DNA from: Stigmatella ashevillena
GTDB lineage: Bacteria; Myxococcota; Myxococcia; Myxococcales; Myxococcaceae
Direction of reading: 5' to 3'
Assembly (NCBI RefSeq): GCF_028368975.1
Contig: NZ_JAQNDM010000002.1
Coordinates: 5,760,425 to 5,824,424, forward strand
Length of the DNA stretch: 64,000 nt
Part shown: piece after piece, positions 21,939 to 62,041 of the stretch
Layout of the letters: every line of letters starts with the position of its first letter
Position numbering within the stretch: the first letter of the stretch is position 1
The notes under the pieces: model-generated
Databases searched by the model: none
Seen by the model: the letters and a program-made list of their open reading frames with translations, nothing else
What the model was told of the DNA's origin: nothing
Position numbers and translations under genes: made by a program

Positions 21939-23345
21939 GTGACGATGCACGGAACCTCCCAGGCTCTGGAACTGTCCTGCCTTCCTCCCGGCACGGACAT
22001 TGGCCCCTGGCGCGTTCAGGAACTCAGGGGGCAGGGCGCCTATGGGGCCGTCTACCGTGCCGAACGGGTAGGAGAGGAGGCCAGCGGCTCCTTTGCACTG
22101 AAGCTGGCCCTCCACCCCAGGGACCCCCGCTTCGCGCGCGAGGCGGAGTTGCTCTCACGCCTGTCCCATCCGAACGTGCCACGCTTGCGAGACCAGGGGC
22201 TGTGGGCACATTCCTCCGGGCACATTCCCTTCCTCGTCATGGACTGGGTCGAAGGCTCCTCCCTCTACACCTGGGGCTCGGCTCGCACTCTCTCCTCCAG
22301 GCTCGTGCTGCGGGTGCTCTCACAGGCGGCTCGCGCCCTGGAGGCCACCCACGCAGCGGACGGCCTTCACCGGGACGTCAAGGGCCACAACCTCCTCATC
22401 CGTTCTGCAGACAACCATGTAGTGCTCATCGATTTCGGTGCCGGCACCTTTCGCGGCGCTCCCCCGCTCACCGACGAAGTGCTCCCTCCGGGCACTCACC
22501 CGTACCGCAGTCCCGAGGCCGTGCAGTTCCAATGGCGCTTCTGGCGTGAGCGTGGCCTCCACTATGCCCCAGCGCCCGCCGATGACGTGTATGCACTGGG
22601 CGTGACGGCTTACCGTCTCGTCACGGGCGTCTATCCCCCCGCTCAGGCGACACGGGCGCCCGCTCCAGGCCAAGCGCCTTTCCCCATTCCCAGACAGATT
22701 CCTCCTGAGGAGTTGGTGACGCTCTGCCCTCATCTGGCCAAGCTCATCCGGCAGATGCTCACGACGAATCCCTCCTCCCGGGGCAGCGCGGCACAGCTCG
22801 CCCAGGCGCTCGAACAGGCCGCGAAGTCCGCAGGGCCTCAGGCCGATCAGCCCATCACCCGCCGTCCCCAGCCAGTGCCTGTCCCACGAGCCCCTCCTTC
22901 TCCTCTTTCGTTGGCCTCCCACCGCCAGGCCATGGGGCTGGCCGCAGCAGCCGGGCTCGCTGCCTCCCTGCTGCTTCAGGGGGCGTGGCTCCTGTGGCGG
23001 CAGTCGAGTCCTGGGCACGGGGAGGGCTCGCCCTTGCAGGCGCGTGACGGCGCCGGGGCAGACGCGGGGACTTCAGGGCTCGCGAAGGACGCTCTCCCAG
23101 CCAGCGCCTCCCTACGAGCACCAGCGTCTGGACCCATGCGCATCGGCCTCGACGTTCCGAAAAAGCCCCTGCCGGGACAAGCGAAGCCCCCGTGCAAGAA
23201 ACGCGAAGTTGAACTCAATGGCGGGTGCTGGGTTCTGCCGAGGGAAGCCACACCCCCCTGCGGGGAACGGAACTACGAGTGGCAGGGTGCTTGCTACTAC
23301 CCAGTCCTCGCACCAGTTCGCTCAGAAACTTCCGAGCAACCCTAA
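21939..23345 (+). CDS. transmembrane Ser/Thr protein kinase with Cys-rich C-terminal domain, paralogue 2
   Basis: 468 residues. Kinase domain about 20-290 with all core motifs (GQGAYGAVY, HRDVKGHN, LIDFGAG, PYRSPEA), a Pro-rich linker, one membrane helix around residues 330-346 (GLAAAAGLAASLLLQGAWLLW), and an extracytoplasmic tail ending in a compact Cys motif (KPPCKKREVELNGGCW, then TPPCGERNYEW and GACYYPV). This LNGGCW tail recurs in myxobacterial kinases, so it probably senses something outside the cytoplasm, but no ligand is known. Long stretches are nearly identical to paralogues 1 and 3, suggesting recent duplication or gene conversion. The start is GTG 21939 or ATG 21945. Confidence 0.88.
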   Translation: MTMHGTSQALELSCLPPGTDIGPWRVQELRGQGAYGAVYRAERVGEEASGSFALKLALHPRDPRFAREAELLSRLSHPNVPRLRDQGLWAHSSGHIPFLVMDWVEGSSLYTWGSARTLSSRLVLRVLSQAARALEATHAADGLHRDVKGHNLLIRSADNHVVLIDFGAGTFRGAPPLTDEVLPPGTHPYRSPEAVQFQWRFWRERGLHYAPAPADDVYALGVTAYRLVTGVYPPAQATRAPAPGQAPFPIPRQIPPEELVTLCPHLAKLIRQMLTTNPSSRGSAAQLAQALEQAAKSAGPQADQPITRRPQPVPVPRAPPSPLSLASHRQAMGLAAAAGLAASLLLQGAWLLWRQSSPGHGEGSPLQARDGAGADAGTSGLAKDALPASASLRAPASGPMRIGLDVPKKPLPGQAKPPCKKREVELNGGCWVLPREATPPCGERNYEWQGACYYPVLAPVRSETSEQP

Positions 23346-29071: not shown

Positions 29072-30478
29072 GTGACAATGCACGGACTCTCTCAGGCGTT
29101 GGAGCTGTCCTGCCTTCCTCCCGGCACGGACATTGGCCCCTGGCGCGCTCAGGAACTCAGAGGGCAGGGCGCCTATGGGGCCGTCTACCGCGCCGAGCGG
29201 GTAGGAGAGGAGGCCAGCGGCTCCTTCGCGTTGAAGCTGGCCCTCCACCCCATGGACCCCCGCTTCGCGCGCGAGGCGGAGTTGCTCTCACGCCTGTCCC
29301 ATCCGAACGTGCCACGCTTGCGAGACCAGGGGCTGTGGGCACATTCCTCCGGGCACATTCCCTTCCTCGTCATGGACTGGGTCGAAGGCTCCTCCCTCTA
29401 CACCTGGGGCTCGGCTCGCACTCTCTCCTCCAGGCTCGTGCTGCGGGTGCTCTCACAGGCGGCTCGCGCCCTGGAGGCCACCCACGCAGCGGACGGCCTT
29501 CACCGGGACGTCAAGGGCCACAACCTCCTCGTCCGTTCCCAGGACTGCCAGGTGGTGCTCATCGACTTCGGCGCCGGCACCTTTCGCGGCGCTCCCCCGC
29601 TCACCGACGAAGTGCTTCCTCCGGGCACTCACCCGTACCGCAGTCCCGAGGCCATCCAGTTCCAATGGCGCTTCTGGCGTGAGCGTGGCCTCCACTATGC
29701 CCCAGCGCCCGCCGATGACGTGTACGCACTGGGCGTGACGGCTTACCGTCTCGTCACGGGCGTCTATCCCCCCGCTCAGGCGACACGGGCGCCCGCTCCA
29801 GGCCAAGCGCCTTTCCCCATTCCCAGACAGATTCCTCCTGAGGAGTTGGTGACGCTCTGCCCTCATCTGGCCAAGCTCATCCGGCAGATGCTCACGACGA
29901 ATCCCTCCTCCCGGGGCAGCGCGGCACAGCTCGCCCAGGCGCTCGAACAGGCCGCGAAGTCCGCGGGACCTCAGGCCGATCTGCCCATCACCCGCCGCCC
30001 CAGGCCCGCTGCTGTTCCACCAGCACGCTCTGCCTCCCGCTCGTTGGCCTCCCACCGCCAAGCCCTGGGGCTGGCCGCAACAGCCGGACTCGCTGCCTCC
30101 GGGCTCATTCAAGGCGTGTGGACCCTATGGCAACAGCCGAGGCCTTGGCACGTGCGAGATCCCTCTGCCCTGGAGCGTGACGGCGCCGGGGCGGACGCGG
30201 GGACTTCGGGGCTCGCACAGGACGCACTCCCCGGCAGCGCCTCCACGCAAACCCCAGAGCCCGGCCCAAAGTACATCGGCCTCGACATTCCAAAGAGGCC
30301 CCTCCCGGGACAAGCGAAGCCCCCTTGCATGAAGCGCGAGTTCGAACTCAATGGTGGATGCTGGGGGCTCCTCCGAGATGTTGTGCCTCCCTGTGAAGCC
30401 CGGAACTACGAGTGGAAGGGCGCTTGCTATTACCCAATCCTCGCGCTGGTCCCTTCTGGAAACTCCGAGCAACCCTAG
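29072..30478 (+). CDS. transmembrane Ser/Thr protein kinase with Cys-rich C-terminal domain, paralogue 3
   Basis: 468 residues, the same layout as paralogue 2: intact kinase domain (GQGAYGAVY, HRDVKGHN, LIDFGAG), Pro-rich linker, one membrane helix (GLAATAGLAASGLIQGVW, about residues 330-346) and the Cys-rich tail (KPPCMKREFELNGGCW, then GACYYPILALV). Nucleotide identity with paralogue 2 is very high through the kinase core, and divergence concentrates in the linker and the extracytoplasmic tail, as expected if the outer domains recognise different signals. A DUF3396 gene follows after 22 bp and may share the transcript. The start is GTG 29072 or ATG 29078. Confidence 0.88.
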   Translation: MTMHGLSQALELSCLPPGTDIGPWRAQELRGQGAYGAVYRAERVGEEASGSFALKLALHPMDPRFAREAELLSRLSHPNVPRLRDQGLWAHSSGHIPFLVMDWVEGSSLYTWGSARTLSSRLVLRVLSQAARALEATHAADGLHRDVKGHNLLVRSQDCQVVLIDFGAGTFRGAPPLTDEVLPPGTHPYRSPEAIQFQWRFWRERGLHYAPAPADDVYALGVTAYRLVTGVYPPAQATRAPAPGQAPFPIPRQIPPEELVTLCPHLAKLIRQMLTTNPSSRGSAAQLAQALEQAAKSAGPQADLPITRRPRPAAVPPARSASRSLASHRQALGLAATAGLAASGLIQGVWTLWQQPRPWHVRDPSALERDGAGADAGTSGLAQDALPGSASTQTPEPGPKYIGLDIPKRPLPGQAKPPCMKREFELNGGCWGLLRDVVPPCEARNYEWKGACYYPILALVPSGNSEQP

Positions 30479-49628: not shown

Positions 49629-51860
49629 ATGCGGCGCCTCCTCTTCCACCTCGGCATCCTGATCATCTCTCTCGTCGGCGCACCCACGCTGGCGCTCGAG
49701 TCCGGTGCCCCAGCCTCCGCCACGCCGGACAAGCAACTGCAGGCGCGGCTGGATCTCTCCTATCGGTACATACGGCTCCCGCAGCTCGTTCGTGACAGCC
49801 TGATCCCGCCTCAATGGCTCCGTGAGGGAGACCGGCTGATCTTCTGGTCGGCGGTGGGGCCGGACGCGGGCACCTGGGTGCTGGTCCATGCTCGAACGGG
49901 AGCCATGAAGCCGCTGCTGTCCAGCGCCGAGCTGCGGACCCAGCTCTCGCGGCTGATGGGAAAGCCGGTTCAGCTACCGGATCAGTTGAACTTCGCCATC
50001 GCTCCGGACCAGCGGGGGATTGTCTTCCGGATCGAGGAACGTTTCTTCGGGCTGGGCCTGTCGGATGGCCTCGTCACGGCGCTGGCCCCGGCCGACCTGG
50101 CTGCCCTGGCACTGCCCCCAGGCAACCTCCTGGCTCCCGACGGTCAAGCCGTCGCGGTGCAGCACGACGGCGGCTTCGCGGTGCTGGGTGGCGACGGCCG
50201 CACGCTGGTCGAGCGCAGCGGAGAGGAAAACCACGGCTGGCAGATTCCCGAGAAGGCCTGGTCTCCCGACAGCCGCTTCCTGATGGTCTGGCGCAACGAT
50301 CTGCGCGGCGTCCACAAGATCCCGATCGTGGACTACTCGAGTGCGCTCGAGCGGGTGACCCTGGTTCCCTACGTCAAGACGGGGACGCCCTTGGGGCTGT
50401 CGGAGTTCTCCGTCGTCGAACCGGCGACCGGTCGCGTGACACGCATCGCTCCCACGGAAGGAGAGACCTATGACTGGTTCGCTGGATGGCGCCCCGGCAG
50501 CGGCGAGGCGCTGATCCTTCACATGTCCCGCGACGGCAAGCGGCTGGACCTCTCCGCAGTGGAGCCTGTCTCGGGGAAGCGCCGGCAGGTGCTTCGCGAG
50601 GAGCGGCCGGAGAGCTTCGTGGCCGGTTTGGACTTCGCCACGGAGGGATGGGCACGCCAGGTCACACCGCTGCCGGACGACACCGGATTCCTCTGGATGT
50701 CCGAACGCGACGGATGGCGGCACGTCTATCTATACGACTTCGCAGGCAAGCTCGTGCGCCAGCTCACCCGGGGCGCCTTTCCCGTCCATCAGGTGGCCGG
50801 CGTCGCGCCGAAGGGCGACGCGCTCTTCTTGCTGGCCTCCGCCGACAGCGCCGCGCCGTACGAGCACCTGCTCTACCGGGGAAGCCTCAAGGGCGGCACG
50901 CTGAAGCGGATGTCGTCAGGCTCCGGCATGCACCGAATCACCTTCTCCCCTTCGGGCAGCTACTACGTGGATGCAGGGTCCTCGCGGACGCAACCGCGGC
51001 TGCGGGACATGGTCTCCACGGACGGCAAGACACGCTTTCGTCTCACGACGGCCGATGCGAGCGCCCTCGAGGAGCTGGGCTACAAGCCTCCGGAGGCGCT
51101 CACCGTCCTGGCCGCCGATGGCACCACGCCCTTGCACGGCGTGCTCTACAAGCCGCGCGATTTCGACCCGGCCAAGCGCTACCCGGTCGTCGCCTATATC
51201 TATGCGGGACAATTCATCACGGTCGTACCCTGGCACTTCATCGGCACCTCCGCGTCGCTCCAAGCCAATGGCATCGCGCAGATGGGCTTCATCGTCATGG
51301 TGCTCGATCCCCGGGGCACTCCGGGCCGGAGCAAAGCCTTTCAGGACGCGACCTACGGCCGGGTCGGCCAGACCGAGATTCCCGACTACGTCGCGGGCCT
51401 CAAGCAGGTCGCCGCCACCCGTCCCTGGATGGACCTGGAGCGTGTCGGGATCTTCGGCCACTCGTGGGGCGGCTACTTCGCCCTGCGCGGCATGCTGATG
51501 GCTCCGGAGGTCTTCAAGGCGGGCTACGCGGGGGCCCCGGGCGCGTTGGAGGAGGAGGCGATCATCAACGAGCCCTACCTCGGCCTCCCAAGCGTGAATC
51601 CCGAAGGCTACCAGGCCGGGTCCAACCTGGCCCTGGCCGGGAACCTCCAGGGGCCGCTCAAGATGATGCATGGCTCCAGCGACGTGAACGCCTCTCTCTC
51701 CACGACGATGCGCATGGCCGACGCGCTGATCCGCGCAGGCAAGCACTTCGAGATGCTCATCATGCCGGGACAGCCCCACGGTCCCCGGCCGCCCGCGGAC
51801 CGCTACTCCTTCGACGACATCCATCTGTTCTTCGTCCGAACGCTCGGCGGCCCACGCTGA
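49629..51860 (+). CDS. secreted S9 family (DPP IV/prolyl oligopeptidase-type) peptidase
   Basis: 743 residues with a signal peptide (MRRLLFHLGILIISLVGAP). Residues about 60-480 form the DPP IV N-terminal beta-propeller (SPDSRFLMVWRNDLR, then TGFLWMSERDGWRHVYLYDF). Residues 490-743 form the alpha/beta-hydrolase with Ser in GHSWGGY (about 610), Asp in GSSDVNAS (about 684) and His in PGQPHGP (about 716). It removes dipeptides or cuts after proline in short peptides in the envelope or outside the cell. ATG 49629 was chosen because it begins the signal peptide; GTG 49581 in the same frame is upstream. The divergent LysR gene probably regulates it. Confidence 0.92.
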   Translation: MRRLLFHLGILIISLVGAPTLALESGAPASATPDKQLQARLDLSYRYIRLPQLVRDSLIPPQWLREGDRLIFWSAVGPDAGTWVLVHARTGAMKPLLSSAELRTQLSRLMGKPVQLPDQLNFAIAPDQRGIVFRIEERFFGLGLSDGLVTALAPADLAALALPPGNLLAPDGQAVAVQHDGGFAVLGGDGRTLVERSGEENHGWQIPEKAWSPDSRFLMVWRNDLRGVHKIPIVDYSSALERVTLVPYVKTGTPLGLSEFSVVEPATGRVTRIAPTEGETYDWFAGWRPGSGEALILHMSRDGKRLDLSAVEPVSGKRRQVLREERPESFVAGLDFATEGWARQVTPLPDDTGFLWMSERDGWRHVYLYDFAGKLVRQLTRGAFPVHQVAGVAPKGDALFLLASADSAAPYEHLLYRGSLKGGTLKRMSSGSGMHRITFSPSGSYYVDAGSSRTQPRLRDMVSTDGKTRFRLTTADASALEELGYKPPEALTVLAADGTTPLHGVLYKPRDFDPAKRYPVVAYIYAGQFITVVPWHFIGTSASLQANGIAQMGFIVMVLDPRGTPGRSKAFQDATYGRVGQTEIPDYVAGLKQVAATRPWMDLERVGIFGHSWGGYFALRGMLMAPEVFKAGYAGAPGALEEEAIINEPYLGLPSVNPEGYQAGSNLALAGNLQGPLKMMHGSSDVNASLSTTMRMADALIRAGKHFEMLIMPGQPHGPRPPADRYSFDDIHLFFVRTLGGPR

Positions 51861-52084
51861 CCACTGTGCAGAACCCACTGTAGCCTCGAGCGTCACAACC
51901 CCGAGGGCTTCGTGACGGGGAATGTCTCACGTCCTGGGAAACCCTCGCCTCGCCAGAGGAGAGGCGCTCCAGGCATGGTGATTGCTTACCGTTCCCACGC
52001 ATCCCAAACACCTCCCGTGCTCGAATCCCACCGCCACCGGTCCCGTTCGTGGGAATGCCAGGACTGGTTTACCCCGAGACTTGA

Positions 52085-53575
52085 ATGCTTCCTCCCCTTC
52101 ACCAGCTCCCCTTCCGTGCCGCGCTCAAGCTGCTGGCATTGCTCGTGGTTTCATGGACAGGACTGGCCCACGCGCAAGTCACTTTCACCGGCGGAATCTC
52201 TGACAACTTCGCCGCGCCCACCGAGCCCGTCAGCCCGAGCGCGGGACTGCTCACGTGGATTGCCAACAACTACGCCTATGCAGGCTCGCGGGCGTATGAC
52301 CAGACAGGAAGCGACCGGTACTTCGCCACGACGTTCACCGGCTTGAGGCGCGCCGGAACCATCTGTGGGGGCAGCCTGCGCATCACGGTGCGCAATGGGG
52401 ACGCCAACGATTCGCTCAATCTGTGGTTCACCAACAGTGCCGGCCAGATCGGTTCCCCCTCCTGGGGCAGTTCTCTGGCCTCCCTGGGAGTGCCCGTCAA
52501 CGCCACCGGCACCATCGGGGTCAATCTGGCATCACTCCCCGGATTCATCGCCGCGATCAACACCAACGGTTTCTTGGACGTCGTCGTCCAGGATGACAGC
52601 GCGGTGGACTTCATCTCCCTGACCCTCACGGGTTGCAAGACGGATGTCTACATGAAAGACAACCCGTCCGACATCGGGGCCGAGCCCGGCACCTATGGCG
52701 CCTCCGGCATCTGGTCCAGCCCTGACATCCGCGTTTGTCAGACGGCGGGGTGCTCTGGAACGCAGAACCCCGAGTTCGGACAGACCAACTACATCTACGT
52801 GAAGCTGCGCAACACCGGCCCGAACGCTCCGCTGCCCAGCGCCCCCGCCACGGGAACACTTCACCTGTACCGGACCATGTCGGGAGGCGGATCCACTTGG
52901 ATCAGTGACTGGGTTTACATTGGAAGTGTCAATGTCACCGTTCCGGGCGCCACGAATGTGAATGACTTCATCGAAGTCATGGTGCCGTGGACCAGCGTTC
53001 CCGCCCCGGGCCATTACTGCCTGCTGGCCCGCTGGGACTCACCCACCTCGGATCCCATGACGTTCCCCGAGCTCATCCCCTCGAACACGGTCGACAACAC
53101 CATTCGCAACAACAACATCGCCTGGCGCAACGTGAACGTGGTGAACCTCTCGCCCCTGCGCCCCGTGGAGGCGTTCGACTTCCGCGTGCGCAACCTCCTG
53201 AAAGACCGGGTCAGCATGGCGGACCTCCAGGTCCGCATCCCGGGCGGCGCTTCCTTCATCAGCCGCGGCCAAGTGCTCCTCCATCTCGAGCCGAAGCTCT
53301 GGCAGAGCTGGGGCCGGAAGGGAGAAGGCTTCGAAATTGTCAGCGACGGGGTGGTGCGCCTCGTGAACCCGGGTGGGGCGCGGCTTACCGGCTTGCAACT
53401 GGCTCCCGACGGATCCCAGATCGTGAAGGTCTCCTTCGGCGCCGATGCCGGCAATGCGGCCGAGAAGTTCGAAGTGCAGGTGGTCCAATACTCCGAGACC
53501 GCCGAGGCGCAGGGCAGAATCACCGAGGTGGGCGGCGTCACCTATCAGATCACCGTCGGCCCGGACGGCAAGTAG
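52085..53575 (+). CDS. secreted protein of unknown function
   Basis: 496 residues with a signal peptide (LKLLALLVVSWTGLAHAQ, cleavage about residue 30). The mature protein is rich in Ser, Thr, Asn and beta strands. Residues about 190-340 look like an Ig/CARDB-like unit (DVYMKDNPSDIGAEPG, then QTNYIYVKLRNTGPNAP, then GHYCLLARWDSP), a pattern seen in secreted myxobacterial proteins and peptidase accessory domains. Cysteines are few. No enzyme motif was seen. ATG 52085 is the first start before the signal. Confidence 0.8.
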   Translation: MLPPLHQLPFRAALKLLALLVVSWTGLAHAQVTFTGGISDNFAAPTEPVSPSAGLLTWIANNYAYAGSRAYDQTGSDRYFATTFTGLRRAGTICGGSLRITVRNGDANDSLNLWFTNSAGQIGSPSWGSSLASLGVPVNATGTIGVNLASLPGFIAAINTNGFLDVVVQDDSAVDFISLTLTGCKTDVYMKDNPSDIGAEPGTYGASGIWSSPDIRVCQTAGCSGTQNPEFGQTNYIYVKLRNTGPNAPLPSAPATGTLHLYRTMSGGGSTWISDWVYIGSVNVTVPGATNVNDFIEVMVPWTSVPAPGHYCLLARWDSPTSDPMTFPELIPSNTVDNTIRNNNIAWRNVNVVNLSPLRPVEAFDFRVRNLLKDRVSMADLQVRIPGGASFISRGQVLLHLEPKLWQSWGRKGEGFEIVSDGVVRLVNPGGARLTGLQLAPDGSQIVKVSFGADAGNAAEKFEVQVVQYSETAEAQGRITEVGGVTYQITVGPDGK

Positions 53576-53596
53576 TCTGATCGTCCCGTAGCAGGA

Positions 53597-53632
53597 GGGG
53601 GTAACGAGTGCCCGCCAGGGCCCGTTGCCCCC
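53597..53632. terminator. hairpin between convergent genes
   Basis: GGGGGTAACG (53597-53606) pairs with CGTTGCCCCC (53623-53632), one G-U wobble, 16-nt loop. It lies between the secreted-protein stop and the stop of the convergent small membrane protein gene. Confidence 0.6.
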
Positions 53633-53640
53633 TTCGCCTT

Positions 53641-53877
53641 TCAGCGCCCCGAGGCCGCCGAGGCCGCGAACTCCTCGGGCATGACCTGACCCACGGGAGG
53701 CAGCTTCCAGCGGTCGATGCTTGGACGCACCCCCTTCGTCCGGACAAGCCCTCGCCGACTCGCCCCGAGCACCCCCAGGGCACTGGCGATCAAGACAAAC
53801 GCGGGAATGGCCAGAAGCCCCACGAGACTCACCCAGGGCCTCTTGCCGGACACATCCAATGCAGTCGAAAGAGCCAT
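53641..53877 (-). CDS. small single-pass membrane protein
   Basis: 78 residues from ATG 53877: a short polar start, one membrane helix (VSLVGLLAIPAFVLIASALG), then a basic tail RRGLVRTKGVRPSIDRWKLP. Family unknown. The frame is open further upstream into the transketolase region, but that part is antisense-like. The ribosome site is weak, so the gene is tentative. Confidence 0.5.
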   Translation of the reverse strand: MALSTALDVSGKRPWVSLVGLLAIPAFVLIASALGVLGASRRGLVRTKGVRPSIDRWKLPPVGQVMPEEFAASAASGR

Positions 53878-53965
53878 GATGGGCCAAGATGCGAGCGGCC
53901 GGGGCGGACGGGAAGGGGAGCCCCGCCGGGCCGCATGGACGCTCGCTGAGCAGCTTCCGTCTTCC

Positions 53966-54856
53966 TCAGGGTCTGAGGAAAGACGTGATGCGCTCGCGCA
54001 GACCGCGAACATCCAGACCATGCGCGGCTTCGTGCTCCTGGGCGGTCCCGTACCGGCGCAGCTCCGCCCGGCCCACCCCCACGGACAAGAGGCGATGGGG
54101 CAGGTGCGTCAGCGCCGCCGTGACGGCATGCGCCGAGGTCCCCTCCAGGTAGGGCTCCACCAGGACGAGGGTGGGTTCGCTCAAGGTGGCCAGCAGGGTC
54201 TTGGCGTCGAAGGGACGGATGGTCGCGGCGTACAGCACGGTGAGGTCCTGTTCGGCCACCGCGCTCAGGACGCCATCGAGCATGGGCCCCACCGCGATGA
54301 TGGTTCCCCGGCGTCCCCGGCGCACCACGTCGAACCGCCCAGGCACGATGGGGCGGGGGGCCGCGTTCGTCTGGAGTGACAGCCGCAGGTACACCCGGTC
54401 CCGGCCCGGGAGGGCATCGCGCAGCAGCGGTTCCACCTCGTCCGGGTGACCGGGCACATGCACGGTCCAGCCGGGCAGTGCATCCAGCAAGGCGACGTCC
54501 TCCGGGGCCTGGTGGGTGCGTCCCCCCGCCGCCCAGTCGTAGGACGCTCCAATGCTCACGAGCACCGCGCCCACATCCTGGTGGCACAGGCCGAGTTTGA
54601 GCTGCTCGTAAGGCCTCTCGATGAGGAACGGCGTGTAGGAATGGACGACCGGCCGCAATCCCTCGAGGGCCAGGCCCGCCGCGACGCTGATCATGAGCTG
54701 CTCGCGGATGCCAACGTTGATGACGCGGTGAGGGTATTGGCGCCGGGCCGCTGCGAAGACATCGGCGGAGATGTCCGCCAGCACGACGGCAAGGCGCGGA
54801 TCTCTGCCGAGCAGGCTCTGGGTGGTGGAGACGAAACGCTCACGCATGGTTTCCAT
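53966..54856 (-). CDS. transketolase, C-terminal subunit
   Basis: 296 residues holding the pyrimidine-binding and C-terminal domains of a split transketolase: the RVINVGIREQLMISVAAGLALEG block carries the catalytic Glu that activates thiamine diphosphate, GGRTHQAPEDVALLDALPG follows, and the Rossmann-like C-terminal part starts near residue 175. With the N-terminal subunit encoded just upstream (3-bp gap) it forms the enzyme that moves two-carbon ketol units between sugar phosphates. Split transketolases also occur in aminoshikimate-type and sugar biosynthesis clusters, so a specialised substrate is possible. Confidence 0.9.
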   Translation of the reverse strand: METMRERFVSTTQSLLGRDPRLAVVLADISADVFAAARRQYPHRVINVGIREQLMISVAAGLALEGLRPVVHSYTPFLIERPYEQLKLGLCHQDVGAVLVSIGASYDWAAGGRTHQAPEDVALLDALPGWTVHVPGHPDEVEPLLRDALPGRDRVYLRLSLQTNAAPRPIVPGRFDVVRRGRRGTIIAVGPMLDGVLSAVAEQDLTVLYAATIRPFDAKTLLATLSEPTLVLVEPYLEGTSAHAVTAALTHLPHRLLSVGVGRAELRRYGTAQEHEAAHGLDVRGLRERITSFLRP

Positions 54857-54859
54857 GGA

Positions 54860-55555
54860 TCACCCTTTGGGTTCGACGGTGGCGATGACGGCTTGGGGCC
54901 GACCCTCGCGAGGAGAATTCAGGGCGCGCGCCAGGGCGGCGTGGTCACGGCCGTTCACCGTCTCCGCGTGCCAGCCTTCGGACGCAAAGCGGTTTGCGAG
55001 GCCTCCAGGCCATCCGAGGGAGGCCGACTGGTTGTCGATGACGATGGCGGTGAGCGCGTCCAAGCCCATGCGCCCCGCGACGGCAATCGCCTCGTGGTTG
55101 CTGCCCTCGTCCATCTCCGCGTCTCCCAGCAAAACGGCCACCCGGGGACGCGTGCGCCCCTGGATGCGCAAGCCGAGCGCCATGCCCACCGCGATCGGCA
55201 GTCCGTGGCCCAGCGAGCCGCTCCCCACCTCGACCCCTGGCACCAACACCCGGTCAGGGTGGTGTCCGAGCAAGGAGTCATAAGCGCCAAACCGGCCCAA
55301 CTCCTGGAGGGGAAGAAACCCCTTGGCGGCGAGGACGGCGTAATACGCCATGGGCCCGTGCCCCTTGGAAAGGACGAAGCGATCCCGATCGGGATCCCCC
55401 AGGGTGGCGGGGGATACCCGCAGCACCTGGTCGTAGAGCACCCAGAGCACATCGAGGGTCGAGGTCGCGCTCGGGGCATGCTTCTCGGCCCCGGTCATCC
55501 GCGACAACAGCCGACCCAGTTCTCCATAGGGAAGAGACGGTGTGGGAGTTGGCAT
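54860..55555 (-). CDS. transketolase, N-terminal (ThDP-binding) subunit
   Basis: 231 residues with the diphosphate-binding half of transketolase: the RFVLSKGHGPMAYYAVLA block, GSGSLGHGLPIAVGMALG, and the ThDP motif GDAEMDEGSNHEA followed by the N box IVIDNQSASLGWP. Glu replaces Gly in the usual GDGE(L) as GDAEMDEG, a common variant. ATG 55555 was preferred to the TTG five codons earlier. It is the first gene of the pair and divergent from soxR; the intervening dyad lies in its promoter region. Confidence 0.92.
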   Translation of the reverse strand: MPTPTPSLPYGELGRLLSRMTGAEKHAPSATSTLDVLWVLYDQVLRVSPATLGDPDRDRFVLSKGHGPMAYYAVLAAKGFLPLQELGRFGAYDSLLGHHPDRVLVPGVEVGSGSLGHGLPIAVGMALGLRIQGRTRPRVAVLLGDAEMDEGSNHEAIAVAGRMGLDALTAIVIDNQSASLGWPGGLANRFASEGWHAETVNGRDHAALARALNSPREGRPQAVIATVEPKG

Positions 55556-55571
55556 GCGACGAACATGCAAG

Positions 55572-55587
55572 TTGAAGTGAACTTCAA
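55572..55587. promoter_or_regulatory. SoxR/MerR-type operator dyad between transketolase and soxR
   Basis: Perfect dyad TTGAAGTGAACTTCAA (7-bp arms, 2-bp centre). Toward the transketolase genes it sits between a TTGACT (-35-like, 55592-55587) and a weak -10 about 19 bp away, the geometry used by MerR-family activators. Toward soxR, GATAAT at 55595-55600 is a good -10 that would start transcription at the soxR ATG. Confidence 0.6.
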
Positions 55588-55607
55588 GTCAACTGATAAT
55601 CGTGGGA

Positions 55608-56072
55608 ATGAGCACCTTGCCCGCGATGGTCACCATTGGAGAGCTGGCAGCCCGCAGCGGCATGGCCACCTCCGCGCTGCGGTTCTACGAGAAAGAAGGC
55701 CTCATCCACGCCGAGCGGACAGGCGGCAACCAGCGCCGGTTTCCCCGGAGCGAGCTGCGGCGTGTCTCGTTCATCCGCGCGGCGCAGCAGGTTGGGCTGA
55801 CCCTGGAGGAGATCCGGGAAGCCCTCGCTTCGCTGCCTGGATCCCGCACGCCGACGCAGGCGGATTGGGAGAAGCTGTCCCGCACCTGGCGTCACCGGCT
55901 GGACGAGCGGATTGCCCAATTGGAGCGGCTGCGGGACAAGCTCACCTCGTGCATCGGCTGCGGGTGTCTGTCCCTGAAGAAGTGCCACCTCTACAATCCG
56001 GATGATCAGGCCGCGCTCGGCGGACCTGGGGCGCGCTATCTCCTGGGGGATACGTCCCCGCCGAAGACGTGA
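55608..56072 (+). CDS. soxR: SoxR-type redox-sensing MerR-family regulator
   Basis: 154 residues: MerR winged helix-turn-helix (VTIGELAARSGMATSALRFY, then GLIHAERTGGNQRRF), dimerisation helix, and the [2Fe-2S] cluster motif C-x2-C-x-C-x5-C in CIGCGCLSLKKC near residue 120. Oxidation of the cluster by redox-cycling compounds switches SoxR to an activator. In non-enteric bacteria SoxR directly controls a few nearby or efflux genes rather than soxS. Start: ATG 55608 would be leaderless relative to GATAAT; GTG 55602 is an alternative. It is divergent from the split transketolase. Confidence 0.93.
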   Translation: MSTLPAMVTIGELAARSGMATSALRFYEKEGLIHAERTGGNQRRFPRSELRRVSFIRAAQQVGLTLEEIREALASLPGSRTPTQADWEKLSRTWRHRLDERIAQLERLRDKLTSCIGCGCLSLKKCHLYNPDDQAALGGPGARYLLGDTSPPKT

Positions 56073-56144
56073 GGCGCGGCGTCCGGGTACCTCTTGAGGG
56101 GTACAGACGCCGGAGTGCTCCGGACGCATCCTGTGCTCCGGCCC

Positions 56145-57776
56145 ATGAAAAAGCGCACCGTCCGGACACCTGCCAAGCCTCCCACCCGGAACTTGACCTT
56201 CTTGCTGATCAAAAAGGAGTTCAAGACCTTCGAAGAAGCACTCAAGGAGCCTCTTCCTCGCCGACAGAAACAGCTCCCCGCAGATTACGGCTTCGAGGGC
56301 ACACTCTACACGTCTGAATCACCGGCCAAGAAACCGCGGTGGGTGTCCTTCGTAGAGGAGGGTTTCCCGGAGGGCATTCCCATCGACCCAAGCTCCACCC
56401 CGGGTGCGGTCTTGCTCCTCAAGGCGGATTCTCGCCTGTTCGCATTGACCTTTGGACAAGGACGGCACCTCCTCAAAGCCGACGCCTGCGAAGTGGACTT
56501 CGGCTTGAAGGTCACCCTCAACATGGTCGACGCGGCCAAGCTGCGCAGCCTCGACATGCGTACTTTCGAAGAATCAACCCTTCACACGCGCAGGCAGGTC
56601 AGCCGCAATTCGTCTCTGGATGCCTTTAACGTCGACGTCATCCGGGACCTCCTGGGCGCAGTCACGGGCGAGCCCCCTGATGCGGGCTTCGCCAAGCGGC
56701 TCACGGGCCGGGATGCCTTGACGTTGACAGGGGCTGTGCTCTTTTCGGAGTTGGCCAACACGTGCAAAGTTCTTCTCAAAGCCTACAAAGAGAACAAATA
56801 CAAAGAGAATTTTGCCTGGGTTGACAACATTCGCCTCGTCAAGGATGGCTTCCTCCGAGAGGAACTCAATCAGCAGTTGATGCAGGCTATCAACAAGGGT
56901 GAACTCCACAAAATCCATCTCGCTCCCCCCGAGGTCATCGACTGGACGCAGGCGGGATTCCGCTACCCCAGTGAGCGGGTGGGTGTTGACGAGCCCCACA
57001 GTGACCTGGACATCACGGAATGCCTCGAAGCCCTTGCCAAACGAGCAGGGGGCTCAGCCTCCGCCCTGGAACTAACGCTGGATGATTTCAAGAAGGGAAA
57101 AATCCGCGTTGTCTACGAAGACTCTTCTTACGAGCATGAGCAATGGCCTCTCTACAACTGTCTGGTTGCGGAGCTGAGCGGCAAGGAGTCTCTTCACATC
57201 CTGTCCGCCGGGCAGTGGTTCAAGATTGAAAAGACTTTTGCTGCCCAGACACTCAAGGATGCCAAGGGTTTCGTCAAAGAGCTCACGGGCTTCCCCGCCG
57301 CCCGCCCCGGCGAAACAGAGGGGGACTACAACGCGAGGGTGGCCCAGGGTTCCAAGAGCCTGGCGCTCCTCGACAAGCATCTGCTCAAGAGCAAGGGCGC
57401 TCGAACCCCGATCGAACCCTGTGATCTCTTCTCCCTCAGTGGTCAGTTCATCCACATCAAGCGGAAGGTTCGCTCATCCGCTCTGAGCCACCTGTTCTCA
57501 CAGGGCTCCGTCGCAGCCGAAACCTTCCTTCGAGATGACAGCTTCCGGAAGAAGCTGAAGGCGGCCATGACCCAGCAGAATCCTTCGCTGGCCGCTCTCT
57601 TGGATGATCCGATTCCCAGCAACTACGAGATCGTCTTCGCCGTCATCACCGGCTCCAAGCGCGAGTGGCCCGAGGCGCTTCCGTTTTTCAGCCAGCTCAA
57701 CTTCGTCCGGCATGCCCAGCGCCTCTCCGGCTACGGCTTCAAGGTCAGCCTTTGCCGAATCGAAGAGAAGGCGTGA
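56145..57776 (+). CDS. DUF6119 / TIGR04141 family sporadically distributed protein
   Basis: 543 residues matching the TIGR04141 (DUF6119) pattern: NLTFLLIKKEFKTFEEAL start, SRLFALTFGQGRHLLKAD near residue 100, FGLKVTLNMVDAAKLRSLD, NSSLDAFNVDVIRDLLGAVTG, and the late block YEIVFAVITGSKREWPEALPFFSQLNF. The family is patchily spread and often found on mobile or defence-associated DNA; its biochemical function is not established. Codon use is visibly less GC-biased than in the neighbours. The chosen ATG 56145 lacks a clear ribosome site. It stands alone, convergent with the MBL-fold gene 5 bp away. Confidence 0.85.
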   Translation: MKKRTVRTPAKPPTRNLTFLLIKKEFKTFEEALKEPLPRRQKQLPADYGFEGTLYTSESPAKKPRWVSFVEEGFPEGIPIDPSSTPGAVLLLKADSRLFALTFGQGRHLLKADACEVDFGLKVTLNMVDAAKLRSLDMRTFEESTLHTRRQVSRNSSLDAFNVDVIRDLLGAVTGEPPDAGFAKRLTGRDALTLTGAVLFSELANTCKVLLKAYKENKYKENFAWVDNIRLVKDGFLREELNQQLMQAINKGELHKIHLAPPEVIDWTQAGFRYPSERVGVDEPHSDLDITECLEALAKRAGGSASALELTLDDFKKGKIRVVYEDSSYEHEQWPLYNCLVAELSGKESLHILSAGQWFKIEKTFAAQTLKDAKGFVKELTGFPAARPGETEGDYNARVAQGSKSLALLDKHLLKSKGARTPIEPCDLFSLSGQFIHIKRKVRSSALSHLFSQGSVAAETFLRDDSFRKKLKAAMTQQNPSLAALLDDPIPSNYEIVFAVITGSKREWPEALPFFSQLNFVRHAQRLSGYGFKVSLCRIEEKA

Positions 57777-57781
57777 GCCCG

Positions 57782-58558
57782 TCAGTACCAGTTGCGCACA
57801 CGCACTTCGACCCCCACATCCGTGCCGACGAGCCGGGTAAACTCGTTCAGATCGCTGTCACGAAAGTGATAGGGATAAACCACCTTGGGTTTGAACTCGC
57901 GCACCGCATCCGCCGCCTGGGCCACCGTCATGGTGTAGGGCAGGTTCATCGGAATGAACGCCACGGCGATGTCGCGCAGCGCCCTCATCTCGGGGATGTC
58001 CTCTGTATCACCCGCGATGTAGACCCGCGTCTGCCCGAAGGTCAGGACGTAGCCATTGCCACGGCCCTTCTCGTGGTACTGGAGCCGCTCGGCCGTGAGG
58101 TTGTACATCGGGATCGCCTCGGCGGAGAGCTCCGCCACGGTCAGCTTCCCGCCGTTCGCGAGCACCTGCACTGCCCCCTGGAGAGAGGCGGGCAGGGCGT
58201 CCCGCACCGCCTGGGGCGCCACGATGACCGTCTCCGGCCGCACCAGGGCCGTCAGGGTGGCGGTGCTCAGGTGATCGCCGTGGATGTCGGTCACGAAGAT
58301 GACATCCGGTGTCGGCAAGCCCTGATACCCCGAGGCCTCTCCCACCGGATCGACGTAGAGCGTCTTGCCCGCCCAATATAGGACGAAGGTGGCGTGGTTG
58401 ACCGGGTGGATGATCAGGTCTCCCCGGGACGTGGAGACGGCATCTCCCGAAATGGGCGGCGCCTCGGGGGGAGGCGTCTCCTCCTCGTCCGACGAACATG
58501 CAGCCATCCACACCGTGAGCGCCACCGCAGTGGCGACAAGCAACCGGATCTGACGCAT
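57782..58558 (-). CDS. MBL-fold metal-dependent hydrolase, lipoprotein (UlaG-like)
   Basis: 258 residues with a lipoprotein signal (lipobox WMAAC near residue 21). Metallo-beta-lactamase fold of the UlaG/L-ascorbate-6-phosphate-lactonase-like branch: an early HPVNHATFVLYW with a metal-like His, TDIHGDHLS as the HxHxDH equivalent (reads D-I-H-G-D-H), AGDTEDIPEMRAL and the YPYHFRDSDL His near the end. It is likely an envelope-anchored hydrolase of unknown substrate. Start ATG 58558. Confidence 0.88.
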   Translation of the reverse strand: MRQIRLLVATAVALTVWMAACSSDEEETPPPEAPPISGDAVSTSRGDLIIHPVNHATFVLYWAGKTLYVDPVGEASGYQGLPTPDVIFVTDIHGDHLSTATLTALVRPETVIVAPQAVRDALPASLQGAVQVLANGGKLTVAELSAEAIPMYNLTAERLQYHEKGRGNGYVLTFGQTRVYIAGDTEDIPEMRALRDIAVAFIPMNLPYTMTVAQAADAVREFKPKVVYPYHFRDSDLNEFTRLVGTDVGVEVRVRNWY

Positions 58559-58593
58559 TTGTCCCTCTCTCCTTGTCGCAAACCTTGCCCGGA

Positions 58594-59772
58594 CTACCGC
58601 ACGCGCTGACGGGGGGGAGCGTCGCCGTGGACTTCCTCCAACGCCTCGGCCACGGCGTCCATCTCCTGGCCCAGCTGATCCACGCTCTGGCGCAAGCTCG
58701 CGCTCGCCACGTCCGCGCTCGCCACATCCGCCGAGCGCACCCGCAGCACCTGCGTGTAGAGGTGCTCCAGTGTGTAATACAAGCGCATGTGCTCGGCTTC
58801 CAGACGGGCAGCCGAAGTCGCCAGCTCGGCCCTCTGCTTCCGCTGGTCGTCCACGAGCCGCAGCGCTTTCTCCAGCCGCTCCTTCACCACCGCGTCCTGC
58901 TCGGACTCCACCCGCGCCGCCAGGCCCTTGCGGTCCTGCTCCAGCCGTCGCTCATCCTCGGGAGAATTCAGCGAGCGCAACTCCGCCTCGCGGCGCGCCA
59001 GCTCGTGGCAGCTCTTGCGCAACCCTTCCACCGTCTGCTCGGGCTGGTGCACCACGTCCCGCAGCACCGCCGGGCCCGTGCGCAGCTCCGCCAGCAGCTT
59101 GTCGCACAGGGTATTCACCCGCGCCGTGCGGGGATCCTCGGTCTTCGGGGCGGACTCTGCCTGCCGGGACACGGGGCTCGCCTCTGCGGAGGCCTGCTCC
59201 GGCAAAGCCTCCGCGGAGCCCTGTCCGAGCCGGGCGCGCTCGCGCTCCCAGACACGGCCCAGGATGCCCGCTGACCCGCAGGCGATTCCGAATGCCACGA
59301 AGATGAGCCACCATTCCTTCGAGACGAATGCGGCCCCCGTCAGCACCAGCGCCGTCACCGCGAAGACCCATCCCATGACGGGATTGGCCTCCTTCATCTG
59401 CCGCTGCCGTTTCAGGGCCCGCGCCCGCGCGCGCTGCTCCTGTCGCTGCATCTGTTTCAGCTCCTTGCGGCGCAGCCTCTTCTCCAAGCGCTGATGGTGG
59501 TGGGTGTTCGCCTTCTCCGCCCACTTCTGCTCCACCTCTTTCAGCTGCTCCTGAGCCCACTTCTCTACGCCCGCCGCGTGTTTCTCCGCCCACGCTTCCC
59601 ACCCTTGCGCTCGTGCGCTCGACCACCGCTCGCGGCTCTCCTTCTCTCGCTGCTCCCACATCCGCATTCGCTCGCCGTGGCGCTTCTGGCCCTCGGCCAT
59701 GGCCTCCTGGATGCGGCGCAGGTGTTTCTGGAGGGGATGTTCCGGCGGTGGGAAAGGAGGTCGCGGGGCCAT
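58594..59772 (-). CDS. coiled-coil membrane protein with a two-helix hairpin
   Basis: 392 residues. Residues 1-130 are very charged helix (KRHGERMRMWEQREKESRER, then EKRLRRKELKQMQRQEQRAR) with a Trp at regular spacing. A hydrophobic hairpin at about 133-175 (GWVFAVTALVLTGAAFV and WLIFVAFGIACGSAGILG) matches the 2TM domain seen in many myxobacterial proteins. A second coiled coil at 240-370 ends in a short tandem SADVASADVAS. It could tether partners at the membrane. Function unknown. The start is ATG 59772. Confidence 0.75.
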   Translation of the reverse strand: MAPRPPFPPPEHPLQKHLRRIQEAMAEGQKRHGERMRMWEQREKESRERWSSARAQGWEAWAEKHAAGVEKWAQEQLKEVEQKWAEKANTHHHQRLEKRLRRKELKQMQRQEQRARARALKRQRQMKEANPVMGWVFAVTALVLTGAAFVSKEWWLIFVAFGIACGSAGILGRVWERERARLGQGSAEALPEQASAEASPVSRQAESAPKTEDPRTARVNTLCDKLLAELRTGPAVLRDVVHQPEQTVEGLRKSCHELARREAELRSLNSPEDERRLEQDRKGLAARVESEQDAVVKERLEKALRLVDDQRKQRAELATSAARLEAEHMRLYYTLEHLYTQVLRVRSADVASADVASASLRQSVDQLGQEMDAVAEALEEVHGDAPPRQRVR

Positions 59773-59880
59773 GGCAAGGTCCGGGTACAGGCGTCAACAA
59801 GGCTCATCCTGCCCACGATTCCGCCGTTCCACCAGCACGCACGGCGACCTACTGCCCACCGCAGATCTATCGTGGACTAC

Positions 59881-60154
59881 ATGAAATCATCGAATCATGC
59901 TCTTGATTTCTGGTTGCCAGTCCTCCTCGCAGGGCTGGTGGGTGGGTGTTCTTCAGGAGCACGCTCCGCCGATCTACCTCGCCCAGGTCACCTGCTGGGA
60001 CACGGTGAGTTGTAGCGTCCAAAGAAACCCCTCCACATCTCGGAGAAAAGGAAACATAGGCAATACGAACCCTGATGAGGTGAGCCAATGGCATCCCTGG
60101 ACGCGGGCCTTCATGAACTCTGGCATCAGATTCGGGAACTGGATAACCGGGTAG
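59881..60154 (+). pseudogene. small lipoprotein gene, probably frameshifted
   Basis: ATG 59881 starts a lipoprotein signal with lipobox LVGGC near residue 24, but its frame stops at 60015 after 44 residues. A +1 frame continues sensibly from about 59960 (QEHAPPIYLAQVTCWDTVSC, then NPSTSRRKGNIGNTNPDEVS and WHPWTRAFM) to a stop at 60154. Joined, the two give a protein of about 90 residues with a conserved-looking Cys/Trp core. Either a real frameshift or a sequencing error would explain it. Confidence 0.45.
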
Positions 60155-60197
60155 CACGAGGTGAGCCTCTGGCACTTCCCCAGCGCCCTAACGGCAT

Positions 60198-60971
60198 CTA
60201 TGACCGGGGCGGGTCCATCAGCGCGGCCACCTCGGGCCCGTATCCTCCCGGGCCTTCTCCGTGGACGATGAGCGGTGGGCGGACCTCCAATCCCCGGTCC
60301 TGGTCCCGGAGCGCATGCACCAGGAAACGCGTCGCGGGCGCTTCCACCCGCGCATGGATGAGCCGCAACGCCCGGGGAAAGAGTCTCGCCGCCGTGAGTT
60401 CGCCGAGCACCTCCGTCAACCGGGCCGCCGGGTACACCAGGCTGACCCCTCCGCCTCGGAAAAGGGCATGGCGCGCTGCCGCCACCACCGCCGCCGCGTC
60501 ACAGGCCAGCTCCTGCTTGGACAGGGCTCGCTCCTCGTCCGGGCTTCGCACACCCGCGCTCGCGCGGCGGAAAGGGGGGTTCGAGACCACGAGGGCATGG
60601 CCTCCCGGAGGCAGCAGCGTCCTCGCCTCGCGCAGATCTCCGAGCAGCGGGCGGACCTGCTCCTCCAACCCGTTGAGCCTTACGCCTCGCTCCAGCCGCG
60701 CGTACACCGCAGGTTGCAGTTCCAGCGCGTCCACGGGGCCCCGGTGGAACTGCCGCACCAGCAGGAATGACACCACCCCGCTGCCTGCCCCCAGCTCCAG
60801 CACACGCCCTTCCCGGGTGCCCTCCGCCGCGGCGAACGCCGCGAGCAGCACCGCGTCCAAGTTGAAGCGGTACCCCGTCCGGCGCTGCACCACCTGGACT
60901 CCCGCCGTGCCAATGGCATCCAGCGTCTCGTCCGGTCCGAGGGCCTCCGGCATGGGCGAGGGGGAGTTCAC
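60198..60971 (-). CDS. TrmN6/YfiC-like tRNA (adenine-N6) methyltransferase
   Basis: 257 residues. SAM-binding motif I is VLELGAGSGVVSFLL (about residue 57), motif II is DALELQPAVYARLERGV, and the N6-adenine signature is VVSNPPFRR (about 130). This matches tRNA1(Val) A37 N6-methyltransferase (TrmN6), which modifies the base next to the anticodon, though related NPPF enzymes can act on other substrates. The GTG start at 60971 overlaps the TGA of the glutathione synthetase gene (GTGA), so the two are translationally coupled. Confidence 0.87.
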   Translation of the reverse strand: MNSPSPMPEALGPDETLDAIGTAGVQVVQRRTGYRFNLDAVLLAAFAAAEGTREGRVLELGAGSGVVSFLLVRQFHRGPVDALELQPAVYARLERGVRLNGLEEQVRPLLGDLREARTLLPPGGHALVVSNPPFRRASAGVRSPDEERALSKQELACDAAAVVAAARHALFRGGGVSLVYPAARLTEVLGELTAARLFPRALRLIHARVEAPATRFLVHALRDQDRGLEVRPPLIVHGEGPGGYGPEVAALMDPPRS

Positions 60972-61924
60972 CGGTTCGCGGACAAGCGCTCCGCGAGATC
61001 AATGACGTGGGACTCGATGCTCACGCCATCCAGCCGGTCGATCTCCACCAGCCCCGTGGGGCTCGTCACGTTCACCTCCGTGAGGTAGTCGCCCAGCACG
61101 TCGATGCCCACCAAGTACAGCCCTCGCTCCAGCAGCACGGGCTTGAGGCGGGCGCAGATCTCCTTCTCGCGCGCCGTGAGCACCGTCTTCACCGGCTTTC
61201 CCCCCGCGGCCATGTTCCCCCGGTGGTCGTCGTCCGAGGGCACCCGGAGCACCGCGCCCAGGGGCTCTCCGTTCACCAGGATGATGCGCTTGTCGCCCAG
61301 GCGCGCCTGCGGCACGTAGGCCTGGGCCATGATGGGCTCCTGGCCTCCCCGGGTGAGCATCTCCAGCATCGAGCGCGTGTTGCGATCCTTCTGGTCCAGG
61401 AAGACGATCCCCTTGCCCCCAAAGCCATCGATGGGTTTGAGGATGGTCCCCCCGGGGTGCCGGGCGATGAAGTCCGCCAGCGCCGGCAGCTCCCGCGCCA
61501 CGAACGTCTCCGGCATCAGGTCCGGGAAGTGCAGCGTGAAGAGCTTCTCGTTTGCCTCGCGCAGGGCCGAGGGGCTGTTGATGTAGATCGGAGACTTGCC
61601 CGCGCACAACTCCACCAGTTGCGTGGCGTGCAGAAAGTCCACGTCCACCGGCGGATCCTTGCGCAGGAAGAGCACATCCAGGCTGGAGATCGGATGCACC
61701 GCCTCCTGCCGCACCTCGAAGTGCCGACCCGCCTCGGCCTGCACGGACACCGTGCGCATGCGGGCCTCGGTACATCGGCCGCTGAAGCGCAGCCAGCCCT
61801 GCTCGAAGTAGCGCACCGTGTGGCCCCGCCGGTGCGCCTCCACCATCATCGCGAACGTGGAGTCATGGTCCACCCGCACGTGCTCGAGCGGGTCCATCAA
61901 GAATCCCAAGGTGAGGGGCGCCAT
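60968..61924 (-). CDS. gshB: glutathione synthetase
   Basis: 318 residues of the prokaryotic GshB family: N-terminal LGFLMDPLEHVRVDHDSTFAM, the PPVDVDFLHATQLVEL block, and the ATP-grasp domain with TILKPIDGFGGKGIVFLD, PVKTVLTAREKEIC and the metal-binding D..EVNVTSPTGLVEIDRLDG near the end. It ligates glycine to gamma-glutamylcysteine using ATP. ATG 61924 gives a protein starting exactly at the family N-terminus; an upstream ATG at 62008 only adds an unrelated tail. It is the first gene of a coupled pair with the TrmN6-like gene. Confidence 0.95.
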   Translation of the reverse strand: MAPLTLGFLMDPLEHVRVDHDSTFAMMVEAHRRGHTVRYFEQGWLRFSGRCTEARMRTVSVQAEAGRHFEVRQEAVHPISSLDVLFLRKDPPVDVDFLHATQLVELCAGKSPIYINSPSALREANEKLFTLHFPDLMPETFVARELPALADFIARHPGGTILKPIDGFGGKGIVFLDQKDRNTRSMLEMLTRGGQEPIMAQAYVPQARLGDKRIILVNGEPLGAVLRVPSDDDHRGNMAAGGKPVKTVLTAREKEICARLKPVLLERGLYLVGIDVLGDYLTEVNVTSPTGLVEIDRLDGVSIESHVIDLAERLSANR

Positions 61925-62041
61925 TGCGTGAACCCATATCGGGGTGGGCGCCCCGGAAGTCTGGGGCACACAGGGGTGGAGAGGGTCCAGCAGGCTAGAC
62001 CAGGACACCCCCGTGCCGCACCGCTTGTCTCCAGGCGGGGC

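Follow-up and report, generated by a model that had tools for sequence, protein, structure and literature searches.

A lone DUF6119 gene of Stigmatella ashevillena as a candidate one-gene moving unit and possible DNA-targeting defense enzyme

A gene of the DUF6119/TIGR04141 family lies by itself among housekeeping-like genes of Stigmatella ashevillena, which raises the questions of how it came to be there and what its protein might do. The locus belongs to a 64,000-nucleotide stretch of the genome (contig NZ_JAQNDM010000002.1), which was analyzed as a whole and is called the window below; all coordinates refer to it. A sequence-only reading had suggested that the gene is a self-contained acquired system, of a family suspected in phage defense. 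The open reading frame runs from ATG to TGA and encodes 543 amino acids. The gene and its flanks are as follows:

56145..57776, plus strand: DUF6119/TIGR04141 gene (PF19614, 511.7 bits; TIGR04141, 533 bits)
55602..56072, plus strand: left flank, soxR (TIGR01950, 213 bits), which also adjoins the empty site
57782..58558, minus strand: right flank, convergent gene for a metallo-beta-lactamase-fold protein (PF13483)

The matches cover 524 of 524 positions of PF19614 (cut-off 27 bits) and 516 of 516 positions of TIGR04141 (cut-off 35 bits), and full-length scores so far above the cut-offs exclude a family match by chance. In a Pfam search with E values up to 0.1, DUF6119 was the sole match, and the RdgC family model was not among the results. 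That the family is without a known function was borne out: no function is recorded for DUF6119/TIGR04141, nor for phrog_18579, to which the protein is assigned in PHROGs. The PADLOC models match neither the window protein nor any of the 70 family members aligned below. A literature search, which ran without most subscription papers and without any bioRxiv preprints, returned nothing on the function, architecture or gene company of the family. The word DUF6119 occurs in the accessible text of a wheat gene survey, and neither TIGR04141 nor "sporadically distributed protein" is mentioned among the papers searched. The family is thus known by name, while its function, architecture and company were not found in print and are new relative to the literature searched.

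The composition of the gene differs from that of its surroundings. Its GC content is 58.3% compared with 63.6-71.8% across eight nearby genes, its GC3 of 0.737 is the fourth lowest of the 38 called genes (mean 0.843, standard deviation 0.077), and its CAI-like score of 0.563 is the fifth lowest (median 0.69). The less GC-biased codon use noticed earlier is therefore real, and the shift is modest, about 1.4 standard deviations. The surroundings are core-like, as had been proposed, with SoxR, a split transketolase, the metallo-beta-lactamase-fold protein and glutathione synthetase as neighbors. No partner gene accompanies the DUF6119 gene: none lies 3' of it, and soxR, also on the plus strand, lies 72 bp ahead of it. 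The genome carries one copy of the family. No tRNA gene was found within the 64-kb window, an Rfam search of positions 50000-62000 gave no match, and a search for promoters, terminators and repeats around the gene revealed nothing conspicuous (one terminator-like site, 2.6 expected). The folding of the gene leader has a z of only -2.06.

Several other features of the window were recorded. Transketolase is encoded by two adjacent genes (53966-55570, minus strand) beside soxR, and both are also found beside soxR in three other genomes of the genus (G001, G004 and G005). A DDE transposase gene and an adjoining gene lie at 16253-17756 on the minus strand; the latter, which has no Pfam match, has the lowest GC3 of the called genes (0.576). 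Three protein-kinase genes on the plus strand (18348-19394, 21945-23342 and 29078-30475) have low GC3 values by the standard of the window. The latter two share 87% identity over 466 amino acids and are near-identical in the kinase half, which suggests a recent duplication or gene conversion.

By comparing the site in related genomes, a check that the sequence-only reading had named, it is possible to describe the history of the gene in some detail. The family is present in four of the seven genomes of the genus, and in the phylum as a whole it occurs in 23 of 195 genomes, spread over 6 of 90 genera; its distribution is as sporadic as had been claimed. The soxR-transketolase side of the site has a strong match in five of the seven genus genomes, and the metallo-beta-lactamase-fold gene of the right flank is found in six of the seven. 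Both flanks occur together in four genomes. The site is filled in the genome of the window (G000) and in G005, and it is empty in G001 and G004, where the soxR stop codon is some tens of bases from the end of the convergent metallo-beta-lactamase-fold gene. The remaining genomes retain the left flank alone (G003) or the right flank alone (G002 and G006) and are thus uninformative on occupancy. G004 carries a copy of the family at another location, where it is cut by a contig end. Alignment of this displaced copy with the window gene defines two further features:

56088..57776, plus strand: gene-sized unit common with the displaced copy (DNA alignment)
56087..56104, plus strand: palindrome GTACCTCTTGAGGGGTAC, exactly at the 5' border of the common unit; candidate operator or hairpin

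The homology extends from 56088 to 57771, 5 bp short of where the stop codon ends, so that the DNA common to the two locations is the gene and about 57 bp only. Even when one mismatch is allowed, the palindrome is found a single time in the genome, and it is present, with changes, in G005 and ahead of the displaced G004 copy.

The gene and its flanks differ in their divergence. Between the window genome and G005, the DUF6119 gene has diverged by 18.7% in residues and by 28.3% in third positions, compared with 4.5-8.8% in residues and 14.8-19.0% in third positions for four flanking genes. The G005 allele and the displaced G004 copy have 90.5% DNA identity, whereas the flanks of the same genomes have 86.1% and 81.2%. 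The G005 allele is nearer to the displaced copy than to the window allele, contrary to the flanking genes, and the two are joined in a tree with an SH-aLRT of 98 (built by a fast method; several branches are long, and near-identical rows were dropped). The mismatch in divergence together with this grouping indicates that the gene moved, or was replaced, by itself. In the genus, the DUF6119 gene thus appears to be a one-gene moving unit. In a genome of another genus of the same taxonomic family (G013), only pieces of the gene are found, in separate matches, as expected for a dispensable gene. The proposal that the gene was acquired is upheld by the empty sites in two congeners and by a gene history at odds with that of the flanks. 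The proposal that it is self-contained stands at the window site because the unit common to the second location is gene-sized; it does not extend to the family as a whole, in which type I restriction operons and some ImmA-type antitoxin neighbors are found.

What the protein might do was approached through its predicted structure. A full-length AlphaFold model was built from an alignment of 70 sequences (pLDDT 92.1, pTM 0.87). The alignment, A4, combines sequences from 69 of the 80 loci L078-L157 with the window protein. Split or truncated sequences (L086, L119, L125, L139, L140, L145) and close copies (L100, L101, L104, L127, L151) were left out, as was L158, a second copy of L078. The model divides into three parts:

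56187..56804, plus strand: N-terminal half, residues 15-220, RdgC-like fold in the model (VIA-align)
56805..57227, plus strand: middle region, residues 221-361, mixed alpha/beta in the secondary structure of the model, hardly covered by fold matches
57228..57773, plus strand: C-terminal domain, residues 362-543, fold resembling PD-(D/E)xK nucleases (own model and VIA-align matches)

The N-terminal half, over residues 13-220, is matched by RdgC (2owy_A, Z 6.9, rmsd 4.1, 167 aligned residues; 2owl_A, Z 6.7, rmsd 4.3, 169 aligned). It is also matched by a kinetochore chain, 7qoo_L (Z 4.2), which we take to be CENP-L, of the RdgC/RexA fold group, and weakly by RexA (8twq, Z 3.8, rmsd 13.0). According to the accessible text of one paper, RexA of phage lambda and RdgC have a common fold and bind DNA non-specifically, and Iml3 and Chl4 are grouped with them (PMC11077077). 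Foldseek matches of the whole model to sliding clamps and phytochromes (TM about 0.1, rmsd near 20) were dismissed as noise. An "Exonuclease" of phage PTXU04 in the viral library, the only match under E 0.001 (probability 1.00), had an rmsd of 12.8 and was not leaned on.

The C-terminal domain modeled alone (pLDDT 96.8, pTM 0.92) has the order alpha-beta-beta-beta-alpha-beta, which fits the PD-(D/E)xK core order of a helix, a three-stranded sheet, a helix and a strand. The first eight VIA-align ranks are all nucleases of the PD-(D/E)xK kind, with Z from 7.3 to 5.6: HamA (7.3, 6.5 and 5.6), CdiA-CT (6.8 and 6.3), OkrAI (6.1), SduA (5.9) and EcoT38I (5.6). Residues 370-543 of the full model also match nucleases, and the full-model matches include a repair endonuclease of Pyrococcus (2vld, Z 7.0), EndoMS and XPF. 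The best Z of 7.3 is within the typical range for models without a clear match, and the margin is small, as unrelated CD38 matches begin at Z 5.5, right after the nuclease ranks. The matches to CD38, a decarboxylase and a Rag GTPase were taken to reflect widespread alpha/beta arrangements and were discounted; they limit the weight of the nuclease matches. No Foldseek match of the full or the C-terminal model to the PDB reached E 0.001, and sequence and profile searches of PDB sequences gave no relative (best E 0.36, 0.77 and 0.69). The scores on which the fold assignment rests are thus middling.

The residue pattern lends the nuclease fold independent support. The candidate active site comprises the following:

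57318..57320, plus strand: E392, helix-A glutamate (E in 69 of 70 sequences; 15 of 15 in a second, wider alignment)
57414..57461, plus strand: hairpin E424-x-C-D427 ... H437-x-K439, by residue conservation
57474..57503, plus strand: helix motif S444 ... S448-H449-L-F451-x-Q453 (S444, H449, F451 and Q453 in 70 of 70)

E424 and D427 are conserved in 70 of 70 sequences and K439 in 69. D427 and K439, twelve residues apart on successive strands, occupy the usual places of the strand aspartate and the lysine of PD-(D/E)xK enzymes. The acid of the strict (D/E)xK motif, two residues before the lysine, is absent from all 70 aligned sequences; residue 437 is H in 63, C in 6 and A in 1. Catalysis is therefore not assured, and the protein is not formally filed as a PD-(D/E)xK enzyme. 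HxK is the phospholipase-D motif, but a reading of H437-K439 in this sense was rejected since C or A stands at 437 in 7 of 70 sequences and the fold matches do not fit. In a Zn2+ DNase of the CdiA-CT kind, 4G6U, the active-site residues are E177, D198, S209 and K211, and two DNases of the PD-(D/E)xK fold have serine in place of the acid, according to the accessible part of the source (PMC9086364). E392 on the helix, D427 on the strand and H437-x-K439 on the next strand have the order and nearly the spacing of these four residues. The C-terminal domain would thus probably work like a PD-(D/E)xK enzyme.

The company that the gene keeps elsewhere bears on its function. A scan of genome contigs took 80 of 92 confirmed places, 79 of them distinct, and a viral scan gave one locus; both detect only proteins that keep the search peptide patterns. 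The neighbor genes come from a crude gene-calling script, and 249 neighbor proteins from loci without hsdR were scanned. An hsdR-like gene lies in the flanks of 11 of the 79 loci from named genomes. Fifty of those genomes (all 11 included) contain 66 hsdR matches at E up to 0.001 in 204.6 Mb, from which about 0.19 would be expected in 0.85 Mb of flanks (45 hsdR used; 0.27 with all 66), compared with the 11 observed, not all of which are independent (near-copies occur, for example L108 and L127). In other phyla, the DUF6119 gene is over-represented in operons of type I restriction systems. When two plasmids are added to the 11 loci, the order is hsdM-hsdS-DUF6119-hsdR on one strand in 7 of 13; in four others the gene follows hsdS or hsdR on the same strand, and in two it is opposite. 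The hsdR label requires nine changes for ten rows of the tree, which suggests that the association recurs, gain and loss being inseparable on this tree.

At four actinobacterial loci (L097, L100, L101 and L103) the DUF6119 gene is directly preceded, on its own strand, by an HTH-ImmA protease gene and a small gene of some 80 codons, an arrangement that may represent a RosmerTA-like operon, and the RmrA models of PADLOC match 6 of 134 scanned neighbor proteins. Other neighbors, among the matches listed (the first 25 families of each search), are integrases, resolvases, DNA methylases, a BrxL, an ApeA and a pPIWI_RE module. On a Paracoccus plasmid (L077) and in a Clostridia metagenome-assembled genome (L138), the DUF6119 gene is preceded by genes for an AAA ATPase and an S8 protease. 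At L047, L086, L119, L125 and L145 the frame is broken by a stop or frameshift, which may reflect decay or sequencing error. Among 50,697 phage records there is one relative, located between two integrase genes, and 72,556 plasmid records contain 32 relatives. A DNA search with two relatives (from Winslowiella and a viral contig) against E. coli genomes gave no match.

The restriction neighbors could mean that the protein is an accessory to restriction, perhaps a modulator or an additional nuclease of type I restriction-modification, which in S. ashevillena would be an orphan or the partner of a type I enzyme encoded elsewhere. The recurrent proximity to hsdR, often with the gene between hsdS and hsdR and with touching ends, speaks for such a role. 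However, 68 of the 79 loci have no hsdR-like match in the flanks examined, some of which are short, and the unit common to two places in the genus is one gene; we consider this role unlikely. The protein might instead be the toxin of an ImmA-type pair, the lone copies having lost their antitoxin or having it unlinked, so that the cell would be stopped and phage DNA left uncut. The four actinobacterial rows and the RmrA matches agree with this, and there is a precedent in RosmerTA, described in the accessible text of its report as a phage defense in which varied toxins are paired with ImmA-type antitoxins (PMC10440598). Yet this context is confined to 4 of the 79 loci, and three of the four seem to be copies of a single element; the window copy is flanked by soxR and a metallo-hydrolase gene, which makes a toxin of this type distinctly improbable.

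The substitution of the (D/E)xK acid by H, C or A would also be compatible with a nuclease fold that is a relic, in a protein that excludes phage by binding DNA without catalysis. In the accessible part of a review, the Kiwa protein KwaB is said to bind DNA but not to cut it (PMC12904381). The conservation of E424, D427, S444, H449 and Q453 in 70 of 70 sequences and of K439 in 69 argues for an active site that has been kept, and a non-catalytic role is very improbable. Finally, an RdgC-like clamp joined to a structure-specific nuclease domain might serve DNA repair or recombination with no direct role against phages, and the matches to the repair endonuclease, EndoMS and XPF would suit such a protein. 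The patchy presence (23 of 195 genomes), the empty sites, the plasmid and phage copies and the restriction-gene neighbors are unlike those of a repair gene, and this is the least probable of the alternatives.

The account that we favor, and consider somewhat more probable than not, is that a single gene moves horizontally as a unit and encodes a DNA-targeting defense enzyme that acts alone, in which an RdgC/RexA-like DNA-binding half is joined to a PD-(D/E)xK-like nuclease. Probably as a dimer, the RdgC/RexA-like half would bind DNA non-specifically and bring the C-terminal nuclease domain to the DNA. The nuclease would then cut or nick on some feature of foreign or replicating phage DNA: an end, an intermediate or a modification. 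Either the foreign DNA would be destroyed or the infected cell stopped, and some restraint would spare the host chromosome. As the lone copy has no modification gene, foreign DNA would have to be recognized by a mark other than the cell's own methylation, possibly ends, intermediates or a base modification of the phage. The analysis put to the test the identity of the gene, its acquisition, the size of the moving unit, the predicted folds, the conservation of the candidate active site and the enrichment beside defense genes of other phyla; dimerization, DNA binding, cleavage, sensing of the trigger and protection are what we infer. A defense role is plausible, although PADLOC has no matching model and the immediate neighbors at the site in the window genome and G005 are not defense genes, which counts against it.

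HamB, a component of the Hachiman system, is a helicase. HamA (8vxy) is the best match of the C-terminal domain (Z 7.3, rmsd 4.4, 145 aligned), but it acts in complex with HamB (PDB titles), and no HamB gene is adjacent at the window locus. The proposed enzyme is likened to single-gene DNA-targeting defenses such as Shedu, in which, according to the accessible text of a review, N-terminal clamps sit on a nuclease (PMC12904381). Shedu is likewise a single gene, and the C-terminal domain resembles SduA (8ps4, Z 5.9, rmsd 4.2, 143 aligned); the window protein, however, has no PADLOC Shedu match, its sole Pfam match is DUF6119, and the model gives it an RdgC-like N-terminal half. The likeness to the Zn2+ DNases of CdiA-CT (4g6u and 4zqu, Z 6.8 and 6.3) includes the helix E, the strand D and, on the next strand, [S or H]-x-K, but those domains form the tip of a delivered toxin for which there is an immunity protein, and nothing of this kind is present at the window locus. 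RdgC, at middling scores, and RexA, weakly, are fold matches of the N-terminal half, their fold being a two-part DNA-binding one; no nuclease domain is described for either in the accessible part of PMC11077077, and the protein lacks a match to the RdgC family model. The ImmA-type antitoxin gene of RosmerTA (RmrA/RmrT), upstream at four loci, is absent from the window locus, as are hsdM, hsdS and hsdR of type I restriction-modification. The protein is a full-length member of DUF6119/TIGR04141, and the function proposed here is for a family in which none is recorded.

It is a tentative and rather doubtful possibility that the family represents a new one-gene defense class. In such a class, an RdgC/Rex-type clamp would be combined with a non-canonical (H/C-x-K) nuclease, without a partner or a modification enzyme. 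It would spread as a bare gene, and both type I restriction operons and ImmA-type operons of bacteria and of an archaeon would have taken it up repeatedly. If this is true, a widespread family of unknown function would become a testable single open reading frame, a compact unit with named candidate catalytic residues that is transferable to E. coli K-12. The RdgC/RexA DNA-binding fold, otherwise associated with recombination control and phage exclusion, would be tied to a nuclease, and there would be a reason for the place of the family inside the type I restriction operons of distant phyla.
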